From Caulobacter sp. UNC358MFTsu5.1 (GTDB lineage Bacteria > Pseudomonadota > Alphaproteobacteria > Caulobacterales > Caulobacteraceae), in NCBI RefSeq assembly GCF_000712075.1, contig NZ_JONW01000008.1, forward strand, positions 372,001 through 436,000: 64,000 nucleotides of DNA. The letters are read 5' to 3'. How positions within the stretch are numbered: position 1 is the stretch's first letter; the number at the start of each line of letters is the position of its first letter. A program made the position numbers and the translations under genes. The notes below the pieces were generated by a model. The model saw only the letters and a list, made by a program, of their open reading frames with translations. It was not told the DNA's origin and did no database searches. Below, in pieces: positions 1,913 to 38,881 of this stretch.

Positions 1913-4678
<2,766 letters not shown>

Positions 4679-4861
4679 GAAGTGAGGGTTCCGGAGCGGG
4701 TGTGTGTGAGGCCGGCGCTAGGGCTTGAAGGCCTTCACTACGGTAAATTCGAGGCGTCGAAGCGAGCGGAAAGTCCACTTCTTCTACGCGCGCGGAGACT
4801 TAAGCACCGGCCTAGCGGGTGTCAACGCGAGGCGGGGGCGTGCGGTTACGGTTTGCGCCCC

Positions 4862-4967: not shown

Positions 4968-5948
4968 ATGAATATTGGTAAGCCTCGCGCGTACGGCCTC
5001 GTCGCCGTCCTGGCCCTGAGCCTGCTGGTCGCCGCCTGCGGTCGCAACAAGGCCGACGAGCGTCCGCCCGAACCCGGCGACACCGCCGTCGCCCGGGTCG
5101 ACGGCCACACGGTCTGGGCCAGCGACGTCAAGCGCGAAGCCGTGGCCCAGGGCCTGATCAGCGAAGGCGAGCCGCTGGACATCGGTTCGGACCTGTTCCG
5201 CCAGCGCCTGGACGAGGTGATCGACCAGAAACTGCTGGCCGCCGAGGCGCTGAAGCAGAAGCTCGACAAGGACCCGGTGGCCCAGCGCCGCCTGGCCGCC
5301 GCGCGCGAGCGCATCCTGGGCGACATGCTGGTGGAGAGCGTGGTCGAGAAGGCGGTCAACGAGAACGCGATCCGCGGCCTCTACGCCGAGCAGCAGAAGC
5401 TGTCCAAGCGCAGCGAGGAGATCCGCGCCCGCCAGATCCTGGTCGCCAGCCAGGCCGACGCCGAGGCCGTCAAGAAGCTGCTGACCGCCGGGGCCTCGTT
5501 CGACGCCCTGGCCATGGAGCGCTCGACCGACCCGGCCACCCGCTTCAACGGCGGCGACCTGGGCTACTTCACCGTCGACGTCATGCCGCCGGCCTACGCC
5601 GCGGCCCTGCAGAACGTCGAGAAGGGCGCGCTGGTCGGCCCGTTCCAGACCGAGGGCGGCTGGGCCGTGCTGCGCGTCGAGGACAAGCGCCTGGAGGAAC
5701 CGATCACGCTGGAGGCCGCTCGTCCGCAGATCGTGCGCTTCCTGACCTATGACCAGGTCCGCGACCTGCTGGAGAAGCTGCGCGGCGGGGCCAAGGTCGA
5801 GATGCTGACCGGCAAGCCCCAGGACGTGCCCGGCGCGCCGCAGGAACCGGCCTCGGCCCCGCCCGGCTCGGCCGACCAGGCCCCCTCCTCCGACCTCGAC
5901 GACGCCCCGCCGGCGTCCGCGCCCGCTCAAGCTCCGGCCAAGAAATGA
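4968..5948 (+). CDS. Parvulin-type peptidyl-prolyl isomerase lipoprotein
   Basis: 326 aa. The N-terminus is a lipoprotein signal ending in the lipobox LVAAC, so the mature protein should be anchored at the cell envelope and face the periplasm, like PrsA or SurA-type chaperones that help exported proteins fold. A parvulin (PpiC) domain spans roughly residues 140-245, with the characteristic GGDLGYF and 'VGPFQTEGGWAVLRVED' blocks. The N-terminal half is helical and SurA_N-like. The C-terminal ~50 residues are a Pro/Ala/Ser-rich tail. The stop overlaps the argJ start (ATGA), indicating translational coupling. Confidence 0.9.
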   Translation: MNIGKPRAYGLVAVLALSLLVAACGRNKADERPPEPGDTAVARVDGHTVWASDVKREAVAQGLISEGEPLDIGSDLFRQRLDEVIDQKLLAAEALKQKLDKDPVAQRRLAAARERILGDMLVESVVEKAVNENAIRGLYAEQQKLSKRSEEIRARQILVASQADAEAVKKLLTAGASFDALAMERSTDPATRFNGGDLGYFTVDVMPPAYAAALQNVEKGALVGPFQTEGGWAVLRVEDKRLEEPITLEAARPQIVRFLTYDQVRDLLEKLRGGAKVEMLTGKPQDVPGAPQEPASAPPGSADQAPSSDLDDAPPASAPAQAPAKK

Positions 5949-7474
5949 CCAAGACCCCCTCCAAGGCTTCCAAGCCCGCCGCGACCAAGAAGGCGACCAA
6001 GGCCGAGCCGAAAGCCAAGGCCGCCAAGCCGGCCGCCGCGCCCTCGCCCACCCCGGCCGAAATCGTCGGCCAGGTCGGCGCCAGCGTCGGCCAGACCCTG
6101 GAACGGGCCCTGGACCCGCTGACCGCCGCCCTCAAGCGCGCCGGCCTGCGCCGCGCCCAGAAGGACGCCAGCCAGGGCGCGCCCGAAACCGCCCAGGCGG
6201 TCCAGGCCGCCAAGCCCGCCGGCGCCCCGGGCAAGCCGGGCCTGGCCGTCTCGCCCCTGGCCGTGCCGTTCCCGACCATCCCGCCGATCGCCGGGGTCGA
6301 GATCGCCACCGGCCGCGCCGGCTTCTACAAGCACCAGCGCGAGGACATGCTGCTGATGCGCTTCGCCGAGGGCACCAGCTGCGCCGGCGTGTTCACCCGC
6401 CACGGCGTCGGCTCGGCCCCCGTCGACTGGTGCAAGCGCCAGCTGGCCGCCAGCAAGGGCGAGGACGTCCGCGCCCTGGTGGTCAACGCCGGCTGCGCCA
6501 ACAGCTTCACCGGCAAGCCCGGCGCCGACGCCGTGCGCCGGGTGGCCACGGCCGTGGGCAAGCGCTTCGACTGCCGCCAGCGCGACGTGATGATGGCCTC
6601 GACGGGCGTCATCGGCGTCATCCTGGACGACAGCAAGATCATCTCGAACCTGCGCGAGGTGGAGACCCGCCTGACCGAGGACGCCTGGGCCGGCGCCGCG
6701 GCGGCGATCATGACCACCGACACCTTCCCGAAGGGCGCTTACGCCACGGCGATGATCGACGGCCACGAGGTGCGGATCGCGGGGATCACCAAGGGCTCGG
6801 GCATGATCGCGCCCGACATGGCCACCATGCTGGCCTTCGTGGCCACCGACGCGGCCATCGCCCCGGCCGCCCTGCAGACCCTGGTCAGCCTCTACACCCG
6901 CACCACCTTCAACTGCGTGACGGTGGACGGCGACCGCTCGACCAACGACACCTTGCTGCTGTTCGCCACCGGCCAGTCGGGCGCGCCCAAGATTCACCGG
7001 GCGGGCGACCGCCGCCTGGCCGATTTCCGCGAGAAGCTGGAGGCCGTGCTGCTGGACCTGGCCCTGCAGCTGGTCCGCGACGGCGAGGGCGCGACCAAGT
7101 TCGTCAAGATCACCGTCAACGGCGCCGAAAGCCCGCTATCGGCCCGCAAGATCGCCCGCACCATCGCCGAAAGCCCGCTGGTCAAGACCGCCTTCGCCGG
7201 CGAGGACGCCAACTGGGGCCGCATCGTCATGGCCGTGGGTCGCGCCGACGAGCCGGTCAACCGCGAGAAGCTCAGCGTCAAGTTCGGCGACCTCTACGCC
7301 GCCCGCGACGGCCTGGTCTCGGCCGAGTACGACGAGGCCAAGATGAGCAAGTACGTCAAGCGCCAGGAGTTCGAGGTCTCGGTGGACGTCGGCGTCGGCA
7401 AGGGCTCGGCCACGGTCTGGACCTGCGACCTGACCAAGCAGTACGTGGCGATCAACGGGGACTATCGGTCGTAG
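5945..7474 (+). CDS. argJ: Bifunctional ornithine acetyltransferase / N-acetylglutamate synthase ArgJ
   Basis: 509 aa. ArgJ moves the acetyl group from N-acetylornithine to glutamate in the cyclic arginine pathway. The core begins near residue 103 and carries the self-cleavage block KGSGMIAPDMATMLAF; Thr294 is the expected nucleophile at the alpha/beta chain junction. The first ~100 residues are a Lys/Ala/Pro-rich, low-complexity extension not found in standard ArgJ proteins (about 400 aa). The ATG overlaps the preceding stop by 4 bases, which supports the long start, though an internal start cannot be excluded. The YbjN-like gene follows after 2 bases. Confidence 0.95.
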   Translation: MTKTPSKASKPAATKKATKAEPKAKAAKPAAAPSPTPAEIVGQVGASVGQTLERALDPLTAALKRAGLRRAQKDASQGAPETAQAVQAAKPAGAPGKPGLAVSPLAVPFPTIPPIAGVEIATGRAGFYKHQREDMLLMRFAEGTSCAGVFTRHGVGSAPVDWCKRQLAASKGEDVRALVVNAGCANSFTGKPGADAVRRVATAVGKRFDCRQRDVMMASTGVIGVILDDSKIISNLREVETRLTEDAWAGAAAAIMTTDTFPKGAYATAMIDGHEVRIAGITKGSGMIAPDMATMLAFVATDAAIAPAALQTLVSLYTRTTFNCVTVDGDRSTNDTLLLFATGQSGAPKIHRAGDRRLADFREKLEAVLLDLALQLVRDGEGATKFVKITVNGAESPLSARKIARTIAESPLVKTAFAGEDANWGRIVMAVGRADEPVNREKLSVKFGDLYAARDGLVSAEYDEAKMSKYVKRQEFEVSVDVGVGKGSATVWTCDLTKQYVAINGDYRS

Positions 7475-9202: not shown

Positions 9203-10752
9203 CCCTGTTCGCGCCGGGCTCGATCCTCTGGCTGCTGGGCCACGAGATGCGGCTGTACTGGCGCAACTTCCGCGCCGGACGGGCCGGCCGGGGCGCGCGC
9301 GGGCTGATCAGCCTGGTGATCGTGGCGGCGATGCTGCTGGGCGGCGGCGTCCTGGCGGCCCTGGGCCTGCACGACGTCCAGGTCCCGATCAATCCGATCT
9401 CGATCAGCCTGGCCGCCCTGGGCAGCGCCGTGGTCTTCACCCTGATGCTGTCCCAGACCCTGAGCGCGTCGAGCGAGGCGCTGTATGACCGCAACGACCT
9501 GGACCTGCTGTTCTCCTCGCCGATCGGGCCCGGCAAGGTGCTGTTCGTGCGCTCGCTGGGCGTGGCGGGCGGGGTCCTGACCATCTTCGCCCTGTTCGTC
9601 ACGCCCCTGCTGCTGCCGTCGGTGATCTGGGGCCATCCCGGCTGGATCGGGGTGTTCGGGATGCTGGGCGCCCTGGCCTTGAGCTCGACCGCCGTCGGCC
9701 TGCTGCTGGCCATGGCCCTGTTCGCCCTGATCGGCCCGCGCCGCACCCGCACCGTGGCCCAGGTGCTGGCGGCCCTGGTCGGCGCCGCCTTCTTCCTGGC
9801 CAGCCAGACCCGTACGATCCTGGGGGCCCAGAAGAGCAGCAGCCTGTTCCTCGAGATCGAGCGCCAGGCGCAGGAGGGACGGCTGCACCCGCCGCCGATC
9901 GTCGCCCTGCCGCTGCGGGCCATGCTGGGCGAGCCCCTGCCCCTGCTGGTCCTGCTGGCCGGCTCGGCGGCGCTGTTCGCCCTGGCCGCCCTGGCGCTGG
10001 GCCGGCGGTTCTCGGACGCGGCCGCCGCCACCCAGGGCAAGACCGCCGCCCGGCCGGCCAAGGTCCGCCGCGGCGACGCCCGCCGCGCCTTCGCCGCCGG
10101 CCCCTTCCTAGCCACCGTGCGCAAGGAGCTGCTGCTGATCGGCCGCGACGCGGCCCTGCTGTCGCAGGTGCTGCTGCGGGTCCTGTACCTGATCCCCACC
10201 GCCCTGGTGCTCAGCCGCAACGCCGCCCACGGCGCGGGCCCGGCGCTGGCCGGCGGGGCCGGGGTGGTGGCCTTCCTGGCCGGACAGGTGGCCGGAAGCC
10301 TGGCCTGGATCACCCTGTCGGCCGAGGACGCCCCCGACCTGCTGGCCGTGTCGCCGGCCAGGATCCGCACCCTGCGCCGCGCCAAGCTGGCGGCCGCCCT
10401 GATCCCTGTAGCCCTGTTCCTGGTCCTGCCGATCGCGGTCCTGACCTGGTTCCTGCCGACCGCCGGCGTCTGGACGGCCTTGGGCGCGGCCCTGGCGGCC
10501 TGGAGCAGCGGCCTGATCAATATCTGGCACCAGCGGCCGGGCAAGCGGTCGGACTTCAAACGGCGCGGCGGGGCCTCGTGGATGGCGACCATCGCCGAGA
10601 TGCTGGTCTCGGCCCTGCTGGCCGGCGCCACGGGCATCGCCGTGGCCGGCCTGTGGGCCTGGGCCCTGATCCCGCTGGGCCTGGCCGGCGCGGCCCTGCT
10701 GAGCCTGCGGCGCAGCGACGCCCAGATCGCCCGCAACCTTCGAACACGGTAA
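9199..10752 (+). CDS. ABC-2-type transporter permease
   Basis: 517 aa. Integral membrane partner of the preceding ATPase. About ten hydrophobic stretches are seen, first near residues 35-55 (ISLVIVAAMLLGGGVLAALG), then pairs through to a final one just before the C-terminus, with a charged cytoplasmic region near 270-310 (Lys/Arg-rich). The protein is long for an ABC-2 permease and looks like two fused halves. GTG start overlaps the ATPase stop. The open frame extends upstream inside the ATPase gene, but that part is a shadow. Substrate unknown; antibiotic, lipid or polysaccharide export is typical. Confidence 0.87.
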   Translation: MTLFAPGSILWLLGHEMRLYWRNFRAGRAGRGARGLISLVIVAAMLLGGGVLAALGLHDVQVPINPISISLAALGSAVVFTLMLSQTLSASSEALYDRNDLDLLFSSPIGPGKVLFVRSLGVAGGVLTIFALFVTPLLLPSVIWGHPGWIGVFGMLGALALSSTAVGLLLAMALFALIGPRRTRTVAQVLAALVGAAFFLASQTRTILGAQKSSSLFLEIERQAQEGRLHPPPIVALPLRAMLGEPLPLLVLLAGSAALFALAALALGRRFSDAAAATQGKTAARPAKVRRGDARRAFAAGPFLATVRKELLLIGRDAALLSQVLLRVLYLIPTALVLSRNAAHGAGPALAGGAGVVAFLAGQVAGSLAWITLSAEDAPDLLAVSPARIRTLRRAKLAAALIPVALFLVLPIAVLTWFLPTAGVWTALGAALAAWSSGLINIWHQRPGKRSDFKRRGGASWMATIAEMLVSALLAGATGIAVAGLWAWALIPLGLAGAALLSLRRSDAQIARNLRTR

Positions 10753-33175: not shown

Positions 33176-33523
33176 ATGCGCAAGTTCATGACCAGCCTGG
33201 CCGCCGTGGCCACCGTCACCCTGGCCGCCGTGCCCGCCCTGGGCCTGCTGCAGGCCGCCCACGCCGAAACGCGCGCCACCATCTCGCTGGTGGGCCTGAA
33301 CCTCTCCAACCCCGCCCACGCCGCCGAATTCAACGCCCGCGTCGACGCCGCCGGCGAGCGCGTCTGCCGCGACCTGGTCCACGACAACCCCACGGGCGAC
33401 TTCACGATCGCCGGCTGCAAGGACGGCATCCGCAAGCAGGCCGCCTCGCAGCTGTCCCAGAGCCAGCGCGAAGCCCTGAAGATGGCCGTCCGCGCCACCC
33501 CGGTCTCGGTCGCCGCCCGCTGA
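33176..33523 (+). CDS. UrcA-family secreted protein
   Basis: 115 aa. A signal peptide (residues 1 to ~29, ending AAHA) leads into 'VGLNLSNPAHAAEFNARVDAAGERVCRDLV', the UrcA family mark, with a Cys pair (VC.D and AGCKDGI) probably forming a disulfide in the periplasm. The family is common in Caulobacterales and has no known activity. AAAGGGA lies 7 bases upstream of the ATG. A bidirectional terminator separates it from the opposing pntB. Confidence 0.85.
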   Translation: MRKFMTSLAAVATVTLAAVPALGLLQAAHAETRATISLVGLNLSNPAHAAEFNARVDAAGERVCRDLVHDNPTGDFTIAGCKDGIRKQAASQLSQSQREALKMAVRATPVSVAAR

Positions 33524-33546
33524 GCGACCGCATGATCCAGACAAGC

Positions 33547-33585
33547 AAAAGGCCCCGGACGGGAACGTCCGGGGCCTCTTCTTTT
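33547..33585. terminator. Bidirectional terminator between urcA-like gene and pntB
   Basis: AGGCCCCGGAC (33550-33560) pairs with GTCCGGGGCCT (33567-33577), followed by CTTCTTTT on the + strand; an A-run upstream serves pntB on the - strand. Confidence 0.88.
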
Positions 33586-33604
33586 GCAGACGGGATCGCA
33601 GGCC

Positions 33605-35023
33605 CTAGAGCCCCTTCACGATCCCCTCGACCATCTTCTTGGCGTCGCCGAACAGCATCATGGTGTTGTCGCGGAAGAACAGCTCGTTCTCCACGCCGGC
33701 GTAGCCCGAGCTCATGCCGCGCTTGATGAACAGCACGGTGCGGGCCTTCTCGACGTCCAGGATCGGCATGCCGAAGATCGGGCTCTGCGGGTCGGTCTTG
33801 GCGGCCGGGTTGGTGACGTCGTTGGCGCCGATCACGAAGGCCACGTCGGCCGTCGAGAACTCGCTGTTGATGTCCTCCAGCTCGAACACCTCGTCATAGG
33901 GCACGTTGGCCTCGGCCAGCAGCACGTTCATGTGGCCCGGCATGCGGCCGGCGACGGGGTGGATGGCGTACTTCACCTCCACGCCTTCTTCCTTCAGCTT
34001 GTCGGCCATTTCGCGCAGGGCGTGCTGGGCCTGGGAGACGGCCATGCCGTAGCCCGGGACGATGATCACCTTGCTGGCGTTCTTCATGATGAAGGCCGCG
34101 TCGTCGGCGCTGCCCTGCTTGACCGGACGGGTCTCGACCTTGCCGCCGGGGCCGGCGGCCGCGGCGTCGGCCCCGAAGCCGCCCAGGATCACCGAGACGA
34201 ACGATCGGTTCATGCCCTTGCACATGATGTAGGACAGGATCGCGCCCGACGAACCGACCAGGGCGCCGGTGATGATCAGGGTGGTGTTCTCCAGGGTGAA
34301 GCCGAGGGCCGCGGCGGCCCAGCCCGAATAGCTGTTCAGCATCGACACGACGACCGGCATGTCGGCGCCGCCGATCGGGATGATCAGGGTCACGCCGATC
34401 AGCAGGCTCAGCGCGAAGATCGCCCAGAAGGCCCAGATGGCCGAACCGCCCGAGATCACCAGCACCACCACCAGGGCCACGATGGCCAGGGCGATGACGA
34501 TGTTCAGCAGGTGGCGGGCCGGCAGCAGGATCGGCGCGCCGCCCATGTTGCCGTTCAGCTTGGCGAAGGCGATGACCGAGCCGGTGAAGGTGATGGCGCC
34601 GATGGCCAGGCCCACCGACAGCTCGATCAGGCTGTTGAGGTGCACATGACCGTCCGCGCCCAGGATGCCGTAGGCCGCCGGGGTGTAGATCGCCGCCACG
34701 GCCACCAGACAGGCGGCCATGCCGACCAGGCTGTGGAAGGCCGCCACCAGCTGGGGCATCGAGGTCATCGGCACCTTGCGGGCGATCACCGCGCCCACCC
34801 CGCCGCCGACGGCCACGCCGCCGATGATCAGGCCGATGGTCACCGGGTCGAGCGCGCCCTGGCTCCACAGGGTGGCCAGGGTGGTCAGCACGGCGATGGC
34901 CATGCCGATCATGCCGTAGGTGTTGCCCTTGCGGCTGGTCTCGGGGCTGGACAGCCCCCGCAGCGCCAGGATGAAAAGCACCCCCGAGACGATGTAGAGG
35001 ATGGCGGCGAGATTGGCGTTCAT
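33605..35023 (-). CDS. pntB: NAD(P) transhydrogenase subunit beta
   Basis: 472 aa. PntB provides about nine membrane helices (residues 1-270) and the NADP(H)-binding domain III at the C-terminus, with 'VIIVPGYGMAVSQAQHAL' and 'VAFVIGANDVTNPAAKTDPQSPI' as family marks. With PntAA and PntAB it couples proton entry to hydride transfer from NADH to NADP+. The ATG lies one base after the stop of the FkbM-like gene and has no strong ribosome site of its own, so translation is probably coupled to that gene. Confidence 0.97.
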   Translation of the reverse strand: MNANLAAILYIVSGVLFILALRGLSSPETSRKGNTYGMIGMAIAVLTTLATLWSQGALDPVTIGLIIGGVAVGGGVGAVIARKVPMTSMPQLVAAFHSLVGMAACLVAVAAIYTPAAYGILGADGHVHLNSLIELSVGLAIGAITFTGSVIAFAKLNGNMGGAPILLPARHLLNIVIALAIVALVVVLVISGGSAIWAFWAIFALSLLIGVTLIIPIGGADMPVVVSMLNSYSGWAAAALGFTLENTTLIITGALVGSSGAILSYIMCKGMNRSFVSVILGGFGADAAAAGPGGKVETRPVKQGSADDAAFIMKNASKVIIVPGYGMAVSQAQHALREMADKLKEEGVEVKYAIHPVAGRMPGHMNVLLAEANVPYDEVFELEDINSEFSTADVAFVIGANDVTNPAAKTDPQSPIFGMPILDVEKARTVLFIKRGMSSGYAGVENELFFRDNTMMLFGDAKKMVEGIVKGL

Positions 35024-35024
35024 G

Positions 35025-35915
35025 TCAGGTCTTGGCCCCCAAGAGCGGCGAAGAGGAAAGCTCCGGCGCGGCGTTGACGCCGAACCGGGGTGGATGGCCC
35101 GAAGGCAGGCCGGAGAGGTCGTAGCGCGGCGGCTCGTAGTGGTTGGCCGCCGTGTAGGGCGCGGCGAAGCGGGGCTGGCCGTCGGGACCGGCCAGCTCGT
35201 CCTCGCGTACGAAGAAGGCGTTGGCGCCGGAGAGATTGCAGCCGACCAGGGCGTAGCCCTTGGCGCGGCCCAGGGCCTCCAGGCTGGTGAGGCTGGCGCT
35301 GTGATAGTTGCCGCCGTCCCAGACCCGGTCGGCCTTGTACTCGGCGACGAAGGGCACGGGCGGCGGATAGGCGGCGTTGTATTCGATGATCAGGACGCGC
35401 GGGCGCACGGCTTCGATGGCCTTCCAGATCCAGTAGTCGTTGCCGTCGATGTCGATCGACAGCAGGTCCACCGAGGCGGGCCTGGCGGCGGTCCCGCCGG
35501 CCCAGGGGCCCAGCAGGCCGTCGATGTTCTCGGCGGTGACGAAGGCCTTCTGGACGGTCAGGCGCCCCTGCCCCACGGCCACGGCCTGGTGCTTCTGGGC
35601 GGCCTCGACGTACTTGTCCGAACCGTCCAGCCACAGGCCGCTCCAGCCGGCCATCAGCAGCAGGGCGGTGTTGCACTCCACGCCGGCCTGGACGCCGAAC
35701 TCGATGAAGCGCCGGTCGCCCTCGCCGATGCGGTTGAAGATCTCGAGGACGATGCCGTCCTCGTCGTTCTGGCTGTAGGTCTTGCGGCCATGGGCGATCA
35801 GCCGCCCGGGCTGGCGAGCCCGTTCGCTGCCGCGCAACTCGTCCCACCAGCGCTCCAGCGCGATGCGCCGCAGGCCGTCGGAACGGTTGGCGATTTTCTT
35901 GATCGCGCTGAACAT
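35025..35915 (-). CDS. FkbM-like methyltransferase inside pnt operon
   Basis: 296 aa, soluble. 'RFIEFGVQAGVECNTALLLMAGWSGLWLDGSD' resembles the SAM-binding loop and 'VDLLSIDIDGNDYWIWKAIEAVRPRVLIIEYNA' the acidic motif of FkbM-type methyltransferases, which often act on O-groups of sugars or lipids. Substrate unknown. The gene sits 30 bases after pntAB and 1 base before pntB, on the same strand, so it is cut into the transhydrogenase operon. Base composition is like its neighbours, so a recent foreign origin is not evident. The family call is by motif and could be a related SAM-dependent or sugar-modifying enzyme. Confidence 0.75.
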   Translation of the reverse strand: MFSAIKKIANRSDGLRRIALERWWDELRGSERARQPGRLIAHGRKTYSQNDEDGIVLEIFNRIGEGDRRFIEFGVQAGVECNTALLLMAGWSGLWLDGSDKYVEAAQKHQAVAVGQGRLTVQKAFVTAENIDGLLGPWAGGTAARPASVDLLSIDIDGNDYWIWKAIEAVRPRVLIIEYNAAYPPPVPFVAEYKADRVWDGGNYHSASLTSLEALGRAKGYALVGCNLSGANAFFVREDELAGPDGQPRFAAPYTAANHYEPPRYDLSGLPSGHPPRFGVNAAPELSSSPLLGAKT

Positions 35916-35945
35916 GGCCCGAAGGCTCCCGTCGCCTTCCGCGCC

Positions 35946-36281
35946 CTATTTCTTCTCTTTCTTCTTGTACATCGCCAGCATGCGCTGGGTGACCAGGAAG
36001 CCGCCGAAGATATTGACCGCGGCGAAGGCGGCGGCGACCGCGCCGGCGCCCTTGGAGATCCAGGTCGAGGCGGCCACCGTGCCGCCGTCCAGGTCGGAAT
36101 TGGCGCCGTGGGCCGCGGCGGCCAGCAGGGCGCCGACGATGATCACCGACGAGATGGCGTTGGTCACGGCCATCAGCGGGGTGTGCAGCGCGGGCGTCAC
36201 GCTCCAGACCACGTAGTAGCCCACGAAGATGGCGAGCACGAAGATCGCCAGGCGGAACACGGTGGGGTCGACGGCTTCCAT
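35946..36281 (-). CDS. pntAB: NAD(P) transhydrogenase subunit alpha part 2
   Basis: 111 aa. This is the small membrane part of the alpha subunit, split from the NAD-binding part as is normal in alphaproteobacteria. Three or four hydrophobic stretches are seen ([60 protein letters not shown]), followed by a Lys-rich end. It lies 28 bases after pntAA. Confidence 0.95.
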
Positions 36282-36309
36282 GGGAGCCTCCCTATTTCGA
36301 TGCGTGGAG

Positions 36310-37452
36310 TTAGGCGGTCTTCAGAGAAGGGTGCACGACTTCGCCGCCCTGGGTGACCAGGGCCGCCTTGAGGATTTCGTCCTCGAAGTCGGGGGCGAAG
36401 GCGCCCTCCTTGTTCAGGAACAGGCTCGACAGGGCGAAGAGGTTGCGGGCGTAGAGCGCGCTGGCGTCGGTGGCGATGCGGCCCGGCAGGTTGGCCGCGC
36501 CCAGGATCTTGACGCCGTTTGCGGTGACCACCGTCTCGTTCAGCTTGCCGCCCTCGACGTTGCCGCCGGCCTCGATGGCCAGGTCGACCAGGATCGAGCC
36601 CGGCTTCATCGACGCCACCTGGGCGGCGTTGACCAGCTTGGGCGCGGGGCGGCCGGGGATCAGGGCCGTGGTGATGACGATGTCCTGCTTGGCGATGTGC
36701 GAGGAGACCAGCTCGGCCTGCTTGGCCTGGTATTCCTTCGACATTTCCTTGGCGTAGCCGCCGGCGGTCTGGGCGTTCTTGAACTCTTCGTCCTCGACGG
36801 CCAGGAACTTGGCGCCCAGCGACTCGACCTGCTCCTTGGTGGCCGGACGCACGTCGGTGGCGGTGACCACCGCGCCCAGGCGGCGAGCGGTGGCGATGGC
36901 CTGCAGGCCCGCCACGCCCACGCCCATCACGAAGACCTTGGCCGCGGCGACGGTGCCGGCGGCGGTCATCATCATCGGCAGGGCCTTGCCGTAGGCCTCG
37001 GCGCCCTCGATCACGGCGCGATAGCCGGCGAGGTTGGCCTGGGAGGACAGCATGTCCATCACCTGGGCCCGCGTGATGCGCGGGATGAACTCCATGGCGA
37101 TGGCGCTGGCGCCGGCCTTGGCCAGGGCGTCCAGGGTTTCCTTGTCCTGGTGCGGATTGAGCGCGGCCGCGACGATCGCGCCCTTCTTCAGGGCGGCGAT
37201 CTCGGCGGCTTCGGGGGCGCGGACCTTGAACAGGACGTCGGCGTCCTTCAGGGCGTCCTTCGCCGTCTTGGCCAGCTTGGCGCCGGCCGCTTCGTAGTCG
37301 GCGTCCGGATACGACGCCGCGATCCCCGCCCCGGCCTGCACGACGACCGTGAAGCCGGCGGCAGCCAGTTTCTTCACGGTCTCGGGCGTGGCCGCGACCC
37401 GCGTTTCACCCGCGCGGGTCTCTTTCGTGACGGCGATGACGGCCATCGGCAT
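36310..37452 (-). CDS. pntAA: NAD(P) transhydrogenase subunit alpha part 1
   Basis: 380 aa, soluble. It binds NAD(H) (domain I). '[20 protein letters not shown]' begins the protein, and the nucleotide-binding '[30 protein letters not shown]' near residues 170-205 and '[12 protein letters not shown]' later are family marks. Two starts are possible: ATG at 37452 with GGGAGGGG very close, or ATG at 37446 with the same site at a 9-base spacing; the second may be the real one. First gene of the pnt operon. Confidence 0.96.
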
Positions 37453-37572
37453 ACCCCTCCCAAGGACGCTGCTTGCTCCGACGAGCTTGCGCGTCTCTCT
37501 AGGGGATGTTCTTGCCCGATGTCGAGCCTTACGCTCGCGTCAGAGGCAAAAAAATTCCGATGTCTACCGGTG

Positions 37573-37803
37573 TCAGTGGGCGGAGGCGGGCTTTTCGCGC
37601 AGGAACACGACGCCCACGATCGCCAGCACGATTCCCGGGACCAGGCCACCGATGAAGCCGGCGGCGGTGCAGAACCACAGGGTGATCGTCAGCAGCAGGA
37701 CGGCCACGGCCAGCGAGCCCCACTTGGTCATCTTGCCGAAACCCTCGAAGGTCGCGGCCTGCTCTTGAATGTCCATCGAACCGCGTTGGTAGTCGCCGGC
37801 CAT
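37573..37803 (-). CDS. aa3-type cytochrome c oxidase subunit IV
   Basis: 76 aa. The soluble start 'MDIQEQAATFEGFGKMTKWGSLAVAVLLLTITLWFC' and two hydrophobic stretches fit the small alphaproteobacterial COX subunit IV (PF07835), which joins the aa3 oxidase at its periphery. The large oxidase genes are not in this window. It lies 120 bases upstream of pntAA on the same strand, so it may share its promoter, though this is not shown. Confidence 0.87.
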   Translation of the reverse strand: MAGDYQRGSMDIQEQAATFEGFGKMTKWGSLAVAVLLLTITLWFCTAAGFIGGLVPGIVLAIVGVVFLREKPASAH

Positions 37804-37864
37804 GTCTGTTTCCTAGGTGGAATTAAAAAAACGCCCCGCCGCTTACAACGTGCGGCGCGTGGGC

Positions 37865-38881
37865 TCAAGCCGCCGCGATGTCGCGGTTGGCCCAGGCCTC
37901 GTCGGTGAACCGCGTTCGCACAGCCGCGACGGCCTGGTAGACCGAAATGTCGGCGATCCGCCCTTCCCCGCCGTCCAGCCGCGAGAGCCAGCGCGAATAG
38001 GCCGGTACGGGGCTGGTGCCCATCAGGCCGACGGCCGGGCGGCCGACCGAGGCGGCGACGTTCAGAGGTCCCGAGTCGTTGCCCAGGAACCCGGCCGACA
38101 GGGCGATCAGGGCCGCGCCCTGGTCCAGCGGCAGGTCGAAGACGGCCACGTCGCGGCCAGGAGGCTGAGCCTCGATCACGGGCGCGGCCCGCGCGGCGTC
38201 GCCGGGCCCGCCTAGCCAGAAGACGGTCGGGAATAGGTCGGCCAGGGCCGTCGACACGGCGGCGAAACGCTCGGCGGGCCAGGTGCGGGCCGGCTCGCTG
38301 GCCCCCACGCCCAGCACCAGCCAGGGCCCGGGCCGGTCGCCGAACCGCGCCTTGACGGCGGCCACGGCCTTGGGGTCGAGCAACAGGCCCGGCTCGCGGC
38401 TGTCGACCTTCAGCCCATGCAGGGCCTCGAAGGCGGCCAGCTTGGCCAGGCGATGCTCGGGCCGCATGGCCTTGGGCAGGAACGGCCCCCGCAGCCACTG
38501 CTCCTGGCTGGAATGGCCCAGGCCGAAGCCGCGCCGGTCCGGCACCCCGGCCAGCCAGGCGGCCTGGGCGGGACGGCCGATCTTCTCCAGGATCCAGACG
38601 GCGCGCGGCTTCACCGCGCGGCAGATGCGCCAGAAGTCGAGGACCTCCTTCACGCCCTTCAGCGATCCGGTGAAGTGGCGGGCATAGACCACGCCGGCGA
38701 TCGTCGGCTCCACCGCCAGCACCTCGGCCGCGCGGCTGGACGGTCGGGCGGCCAGCACCACCGTCCCCTCGGGTGTGGTCGCCGCGATGGCCCGGAAGGT
38801 CGGCAGGTGCCACATCAGATCGCCGATGCCCCGGTCGGGAGCGTAGACCAGCACGGGACCGGCAGGGTTTTTCGCGTTCAC
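37865..38881 (-). CDS. Glycosyltransferase family 9 (heptosyltransferase-like)
   Basis: 338 aa. GT-9 enzymes add heptose or other sugars to the LPS core. The start 'LVYAPDRGIGDLMWHLPTFRAI' and the nucleotide-sugar site 'ALIALSAGFLGNDSGPLNVAASVGRPAVGLMGTSP' (Asp-Ser-Gly-Pro) are the family marks. The GTG start at 38881 is chosen; a Shine-Dalgarno GGGAG lies upstream at a rather long spacing. It stands upstream of the COX IV gene by 60 bases. Confidence 0.88.
   Translation of the reverse strand: MNAKNPAGPVLVYAPDRGIGDLMWHLPTFRAIAATTPEGTVVLAARPSSRAAEVLAVEPTIAGVVYARHFTGSLKGVKEVLDFWRICRAVKPRAVWILEKIGRPAQAAWLAGVPDRRGFGLGHSSQEQWLRGPFLPKAMRPEHRLAKLAAFEALHGLKVDSREPGLLLDPKAVAAVKARFGDRPGPWLVLGVGASEPARTWPAERFAAVSTALADLFPTVFWLGGPGDAARAAPVIEAQPPGRDVAVFDLPLDQGAALIALSAGFLGNDSGPLNVAASVGRPAVGLMGTSPVPAYSRWLSRLDGGEGRIADISVYQAVAAVRTRFTDEAWANRDIAAA

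Follow-up and report, generated by a model that had tools for sequence, protein, structure and literature searches.

The window analyzed here is a stretch of 64,000 nucleotides from Caulobacter sp. UNC358MFTsu5.1 (contig NZ_JONW01000008.1). It contains the transhydrogenase genes pntAA, pntAB, and pntB in this order on the same strand, with an open reading frame (ORF) of 296 amino acids between the last two; the successive intervals are 28, 30, and 1 base. Recomputed coordinates bore out this layout and these gaps as first described, and Pfam confirmed all three pnt genes. The features are as follows.

36310..37452, minus strand: pntAA, transhydrogenase alpha 1, NAD-binding (Pfam AlaDh_PNT_N/C)
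35946..36281, minus strand: pntAB, transhydrogenase alpha 2, membrane (Pfam PNTB_4TM, 1.4e-33)
35921..35939, minus strand: 6-bp hairpin (GAAGGC-loop-GCCTTC; the loop contains GGGA), within the 30-nt spacer 5' of the inserted gene
35025..35915, minus strand: the inserted gene; its 296-aa product is a predicted class I SAM-dependent methyltransferase resembling FkbM and COMT (from the ORF, its relatives, dN/dS, and a structural model)
35024..35045, minus strand: pntB leader CTCTTGGGGGCCAAGACCTGAC, with a Shine-Dalgarno (SD)-like GGGGG at 35040-35036; it doubles as the 3'-terminal codons of the inserted gene
33605..35023, minus strand: pntB, transhydrogenase beta, start in ATGA (Pfam PNTB, 1.5e-195)

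The stop codon of pntAB lies in an ATAG context, and the inserted gene opens with a separate ATG after 30 bases. The spacer hairpin was also observed in G091, G170, and G212, which together with the window make up the four genomes where the inserted gene directly follows pntAB; the raw minimum free energies of the four spacers, taken without a shuffle baseline, range from -17.0 to -18.6 kcal/mol. In these four genomes, the hairpin may reflect a regulated expression of the inserted gene. A scan of positions 33400-37900 found no promoter and revealed 8 terminator-like sites (2.4 expected, sd 1.8), among them one inside the 3' end of the inserted gene (35084-35062, minus strand) and another past pntB (33550-33577). 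The same strand encodes, 5' of pntAA, a 76-aa protein matching COX4_pro_2 (37573-37803, minus; Pfam 2.6e-14) and a member of glycosyltransferase family 9 (37865-38881, minus; Pfam 5.2e-15).

The original prediction held that pntAB and pntB are usually adjacent, and this is the case in the class at large. In a survey of one genome per family, both genes were placed together in 95 of the 123 genomes searched; outside the family of the window, the Caulobacteraceae, the two genes were separated by less than 190 bases in 88 of 93 genomes, by at least 190 bases in five (G308, G398, G302, G380, and G374), and by at least 120 bases in seven. Within the family, the gap reached at least 190 bases in 78 of 189 genomes. 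The difference is pronounced (Fisher p 2e-11, a value that ignores relatedness and sampling). The 189 genomes are those of the 299 family genomes in which the gap was examined; they do not form a random sample, and 78 of 189 is no estimate of prevalence. They comprise 124 genomes in which pntAB and pntB were both among the best 150 matches of each, a set skewed to near relatives, and 65 nonoverlapping genomes hand-picked from under-represented genera. The distribution in the first set was split, with gaps of 199 to 2155 bases in 40 genomes and of up to 86 bases in the other 84. In the second set, 38 genomes had a gap of at least 200 bases (29 of 30 in genus g3, 1 of 20 in g15, 2 of 8 in g22, 2 of 2 in g4, and 4 of 5 in others). 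The junction between pntAA and pntAB is variable as well: it measured at least 120 bases in 16 of 40 loci, and not all of these stretches are clearly coding.

ORF calling on the 78 family loci produced 138 ORFs that fall into approximately 36 families; with two loci from outside the family, there are 140 ORFs in 38 families. These ORFs were called by a custom scoring script rather than a standard gene caller, and the families, which rest on a blastp threshold of E 1e-3, might prove fewer if profiles were compared. The inserts contain one ORF at 40 loci, two at 20, three at 15, four at 2, and five at 1. They are tightly joined: at 65 of 78 loci, the pntAB stop is overlapped by 1 or 4 bases by the first of these ORFs, and 46 of 60 inner insert junctions overlap likewise. 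Unrelated occupants at one junction in related genomes are what defines a variable slot. Comparing pnt loci, as proposed with the original prediction, thus makes the passenger the better of its two readings, although the gene is only one of some 36 kinds of occupant.

Most occupants are small membrane proteins. A simple hydropathy scan predicted at least one membrane segment in 30 of the 38 families and at least two in 23. Some of the small membrane ORFs evolve fast: across three sets tested, dN/dS reached 0.95. That they are degenerate copies of pntAB was not supported at the sensitivity of the searches used (blastp best E 0.035; phmmer, none). A few ORFs, such as one of 63 aa in G094, look noncoding, and a 52-aa ORF was all that was found in the 1336 bases of G374. 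In eight genomes (G113, G199, G178, G002, G011, G049, G066, and G135), the slot at pntAB|pntB holds a HepT-like and an MntA-like gene side by side (loci L108, L109, L119, L266, L270, L275, L278, and L293); the one pair checked matched PF01934 (8.1e-17) and PF01909 (NTP_transf_2; 4.5e-08). One MntA-like protein tested also matches the PADLOC candidate PDC-S09. Furthermore, occupants can change junction, since a family of 258-aa exported-looking proteins is located at pntAA|pntAB in G022 and G047 (L117 and L123) and at pntAB|pntB in G188 and G116 (L121 and L124). Three genomes (G131, G070, and G341) have a second pntAB-pntB pair, whose pntB scores clearly lower in G131 and G070. A literature search, conducted largely outside subscription journals, found nothing on inserts in pnt operons.

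Other operons served as controls. Gaps of at least 190 bases were present at 100 of 455 junctions (22%) in the nuo operons of 40 genomes of the family. These wide gaps were unevenly distributed: they occurred at D|E (29 of 37), E|F (26), H|I (18), F|G (12), C|D (8), I|J (6), and K|L (1), and none was found at A|B, B|C, G|H, J|K, L|M, or M|N in the same 40 genomes. The atp operons of 20 family genomes were similar, with 19 of 80 junctions (24%) widened. Wide nuo and atp gaps may include miscalled starts besides genes. In the ribosomal operon of 20 genomes, only 1 of 381 tight junctions was widened, three loose junctions (medians of 147 to 229 bases) having been set aside; with these and others of a median of at least 100 bases included, 32 of 451 were widened. 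Because the nuo and atp controls are widened too and pntAB|pntB shows no excess over them, we rejected the view of pnt as a unique hotspot. By sequence comparison, insertion is a habit of the family's bioenergetic operons at certain junctions, pntAB|pntB among them.

The genome of the window has such ORFs in its own nuo and atp operons. In the former (L234), an ORF of 110 aa lies between nuoD and nuoE (4519-4851; matched in 17 of 40 genomes), a membrane ORF of 76 aa between nuoE and nuoF (5534-5764; 12 of 40), and a lipoprotein-like ORF of 82 aa between nuoH and nuoI (10489-10737; 8 of 40); one of the 17 members of the 110-aa family scores SnoaL_2 at 1.4e-10. In the latter (L258), atpA and atpG are separated by a 209-aa ORF with matches in 2 of 20 genomes (3858-4487), and atpD and atpC by one of 82 aa with matches in 6 of 20 (7048-7296).

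Since pntB was said to have no clear ribosome site, so that its translation would depend on the inserted gene, we inspected its leader. The 3' end of the inserted gene contains TTGGGGG (35042-35036), which ends 12 nt before the ATG of pntB and has a predicted anti-SD pairing energy of -8.4 kcal/mol. Among random 19-mers from these loci (median, -3.0), 2.5% attain this energy, as do 22% of the shuffled leaders, which are G-rich and have a median of -5.9 versus -8.6 for all real leaders; the signal is thus partly due to base composition. The median predicted energy was -8.4 in 75 inserted and -8.6 in 67 uninserted genomes. Three inserted (G272, G009, and G066) and two uninserted genomes with poorly placed pntAB or pntB were left out of this set; 15 of the 67 uninserted start 4-mers are not ATGA, at least eight of these being plainly misplaced, and all were kept. 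In 18 of the 19 uninserted Caulobacter genomes listed, pntAB and pntB are 22 to 31 bases apart (83 in G200), and their leaders have four or five consecutive G some 7 to 11 bases before the ATG. In G056 and G064, where the ORFs upstream of pntB are unrelated, its leader is nearly identical to that of the window; G082, with another small ORF in between, has the same leader. Conservation of the leader extends to genomes with a different gene, or no gene, ahead of pntB, and by its sequence pntB has a ribosome site of its own.

Translational coupling through the 1-base spacing may nevertheless contribute, and we considered whether coupling could be the very purpose of an intervening ORF, which would then meter PntB against PntAB. 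The products of the pnt genes form one complex, the inserted gene's stop and the pntB start are 1 base apart in six of the nine genomes that carry the gene at this junction, and the last insert ORF overlaps the pntB start at 36 of the 78 inserted loci (by ATGA at 34). Against this stand the many types and lengths of insert, or none at all, among close relatives, as well as a predicted SD of pntB that is equally strong with and without an insert. Metering thus appears an unlikely purpose.

The inserted ORF is present as a single copy in its own genome (search at E ≤ 10). Relatives (E ≤ 1e-5) were detected in 22 of the 299 family genomes, ten of which have one at an identity of at least 81%; both counts include the genome of the window. 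Nine carriers, namely, the window and eight others with 89 to 95% identity to its copy, have the gene whole between pntAB and pntB, and in the tenth (G290) the contig ends about 1 kb downstream of pntAB and cuts the gene. Among the genomes with close copies are those of Caulobacter sp. BK020, Root1455, AP07, Root655, and UNC279MFTsu5.1, along with one metagenome-assembled genome. In 36 pairs from the nine genomes, the median dN/dS of the inserted gene was 0.26 (range, 0.12 to 0.43), close to the 0.24 (0.10 to 0.33) of pntB in the same genomes, which points to purifying selection. These values were obtained with a plain Nei-Gojobori script and are rough in absolute terms for GC-rich DNA; it is the comparison with pntB that counts. 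Judged by its conservation, the ORF is a real gene.

In a tree of pntB from 52 genomes (midpoint root; 24 of 49 forks open), all nine carriers fall inside one group of 11 genomes (support, 96/99). A strain-specific insertion was thus rejected; the gene is common to a Caulobacter clade. The two other members of the group, G284 and G296, lack it, so either the gene is dispensable or these assemblies are mosaic; recombination or a mixed assembly is possible for G284, because the end of its pntAB resembles that of other genomes. Another ORF lies upstream of the inserted gene in five carriers and downstream in three. The last residues of the protein in these three differ from those in the other six, in which the last codons are also the pntB leader. 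The simplest account of this history would be a single gain followed by later change. The gene might also be a neutral passenger that landed at a tolerant junction and has since been retained by drift. The general tolerance of the junction, the two group members without the gene, and the fast evolution of some small membrane ORFs in the slot agree with such drift, whereas the dN/dS values of 0.12 to 0.43 over 36 pairs and the intactness of all nine complete copies do not, making neutrality quite improbable.

The protein was originally described as an FkbM-like methyltransferase. Its match to PF05050 (Methyltransf_21, FkbM) is weak (13.1 bits, cutoff 22.7; E 0.11) and covers residues 146-181 only. 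A further family search yielded no family at E ≤ 0.05, with Pfam and NCBIfam matches weak or absent, and PADLOC gave no match for the ORF. The sole match in a PDB sequence search was 2hnk (E 0.013), and the best E value of a profile search was 0.13. An AlphaFold2 model built on an alignment of 51 sequences had a pLDDT of 88.2, a pTM of 0.87, and seven strands; residues 275-296 had pLDDT values below 50. This model matches 563 PDB chains at E ≤ 0.001, and the best 50 of the 563 are SAM methyltransferases or enzymes of the same fold, such as AzeJ and cyclopropane synthase. Structural matches (Foldseek, VIA-align) include SafC (E 7.2e-07), TrmR (Z 12.6 over 173 residues, 3.9 Å), and rat COMT (Z 12.4 over 154 residues, 2.8 Å); among the matches listed, Z ranges from 11.3 to 12.6 over 148 to 185 residues at 7 to 21% sequence identity, and the region past about residue 243 is barely covered. 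Invariant positions among the 51 relatives include D155, D157, N159, D160, Y161, I163, W164, and E178, and E72, G74, E80, and N82 are kept in at least 90% of the sequences. With the predicted fold, an acidic/glycine motif I, and a conserved acidic motif after strand 4, the protein is a predicted member of the class I SAM-dependent methyltransferase superfamily. Its conserved acidic and glycine residues would bind SAM or metal. The methyltransferase fold is predicted with confidence, and the FkbM label is weak.

Twelve genomes have only a distant relative of the gene (32 to 49% identity), which in 11 of them is on another contig or more than 1 Mb from pnt, both places being known and many genomes being drafts. 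Relatives at 31 to 50% identity are scattered over cyanobacteria, spirochaetes, Bacteroidetes, planctomycetes, and further groups, and this patchiness suggests horizontal transfer. One to three neighbors of relatives were tested at each of seven loci, and polysaccharide genes were found at three: GDP-mannose dehydratase and a glycosyltransferase in L140, a glycosyltransferase and a sugar aminotransferase in L146, and Wzt_C in L018. None was found among the tested neighbors in L132, L013, L024, and L010. According to PMC6978808, the O-antigen of C. crescentus carries 3-O-methyl glucose. Our guess at the reaction is O-methylation of a surface-glycan precursor.

The original prediction had offered two readings, a link of the enzyme with NADPH supply or an operon that had caught a passenger; the latter is favored, with the qualification that the passenger is under selection and clade-wide. 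That the protein serves the transhydrogenase or the NADPH economy, for instance by modifying a Pnt subunit, is highly improbable: its position between two subunit genes, its retention in the clade under purifying selection about as strong as that on pntB, and a pyridine-nucleotide oxidoreductase gene upstream of the cyanobacterial relative in L132 speak for it, but an accessory subunit would be conserved wherever the enzyme is, and the gene is absent from pnt in 180 of the 189 family genomes, some 35 other families of unrelated proteins use the same slot, 88 of 93 class genomes have nothing notable there, distant relatives lie away from pnt in 11 of 12 genomes, and the predicted fold is that of a SAM methyltransferase.

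Taken together, these data indicate, with a probability of about two-thirds, that the inserted gene is an accessory gene in a variable, insertion-tolerant slot at pntAB|pntB and is maintained for its own function. Comparison of the loci shows that in this family the slot is filled time and again by unrelated genes, mostly joined through 4-base GTGA or ATGA overlaps, and that the SD-like leader of pntB is retained, becoming the 3' end of whichever ORF precedes it. The inserted gene would be cotranscribed with pnt and hence steadily expressed. Initiation at pntB would proceed mainly from its own SD, perhaps aided by ribosomes that end 1 base upstream. With lower confidence, and judging from the model, the product may be a catalytically active, cytoplasmic SAM-dependent methyltransferase that plays no role in transhydrogenation. 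An unknown gene flanked by subunit genes is apt to take its annotation from them, operons being usually read as functional units; guilt by association fails at pntAB|pntB, because about 36 ORF families occupy this junction in one bacterial family.

A broader and rather doubtful idea is that the pnt, nuo, and atp operons of the family hold general-purpose gene sockets, whose junctions would be safe harbors or nurseries for incoming or newborn ORFs. Of 75 inserted genomes, 44 have GTGA at the pntAB stop; counting ATGA as well, the figure is 61 of 75, versus 29 of 67 for uninserted genomes. The pntB start is ATGA in 73 of 75 inserted versus 52 of 67 uninserted genomes. A GTGA at the pntAB stop would provide a ready start, and the SD of pntB with its ATGA a ready stop, so that a sequence landing between these contexts could use both; a new ORF would be expressed at once and the host genes left unharmed. 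The tenants would range from small membrane proteins and toxin-antitoxin pairs to enzymes such as the predicted methyltransferase of the window. The window itself, with its ATAG and an ATG 30 bases on, is an exception to this pattern, and cause and effect cannot be told apart in the relation between these contexts and insertion. Close relatives with and without inserts form a natural series for testing how a gene enters an expressed operon without breaking it. This series could also address why pntAB|pntB, nuoD|E, and nuoE|F accept inserts, whereas nuoA|B and nuoL|M had none in our sample.

Several known systems resemble what we describe. With FkbM-type proteins (PF05050), the inserted protein shares the predicted SAM-methyltransferase fold, and 16 of the 51 alignment members match that family at E ≤ 0.01 (best, 1.6e-05); the window protein itself is below the cutoff, and its family has an invariant DxDxNDYxIW motif of its own. 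COMT-like and TrmR-like class I methyltransferases are among its best structural neighbors, but their low identity and the barely covered C-terminal part set them apart. HepT/MntA toxin-antitoxin modules have a counterpart in the HepT-like and NTP_transf_2 pair that fills the same slot in another genome; they are absent from the window and illustrate only what else the slot can contain. Alphaproteobacterial nuo operons, such as those of Rhodobacter capsulatus and Paracoccus denitrificans, contain intercalated unknown reading frames; our literature search found nothing on intercalated nuo reading frames. The likeness consists in extra small genes between bioenergetic subunit genes at some junctions, as seen here in the family's own nuo operons. 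The present case differs in that the operon is pnt, that occupants turn over within one genus, and that a methyltransferase and toxin-antitoxin pairs are among the pnt occupants.
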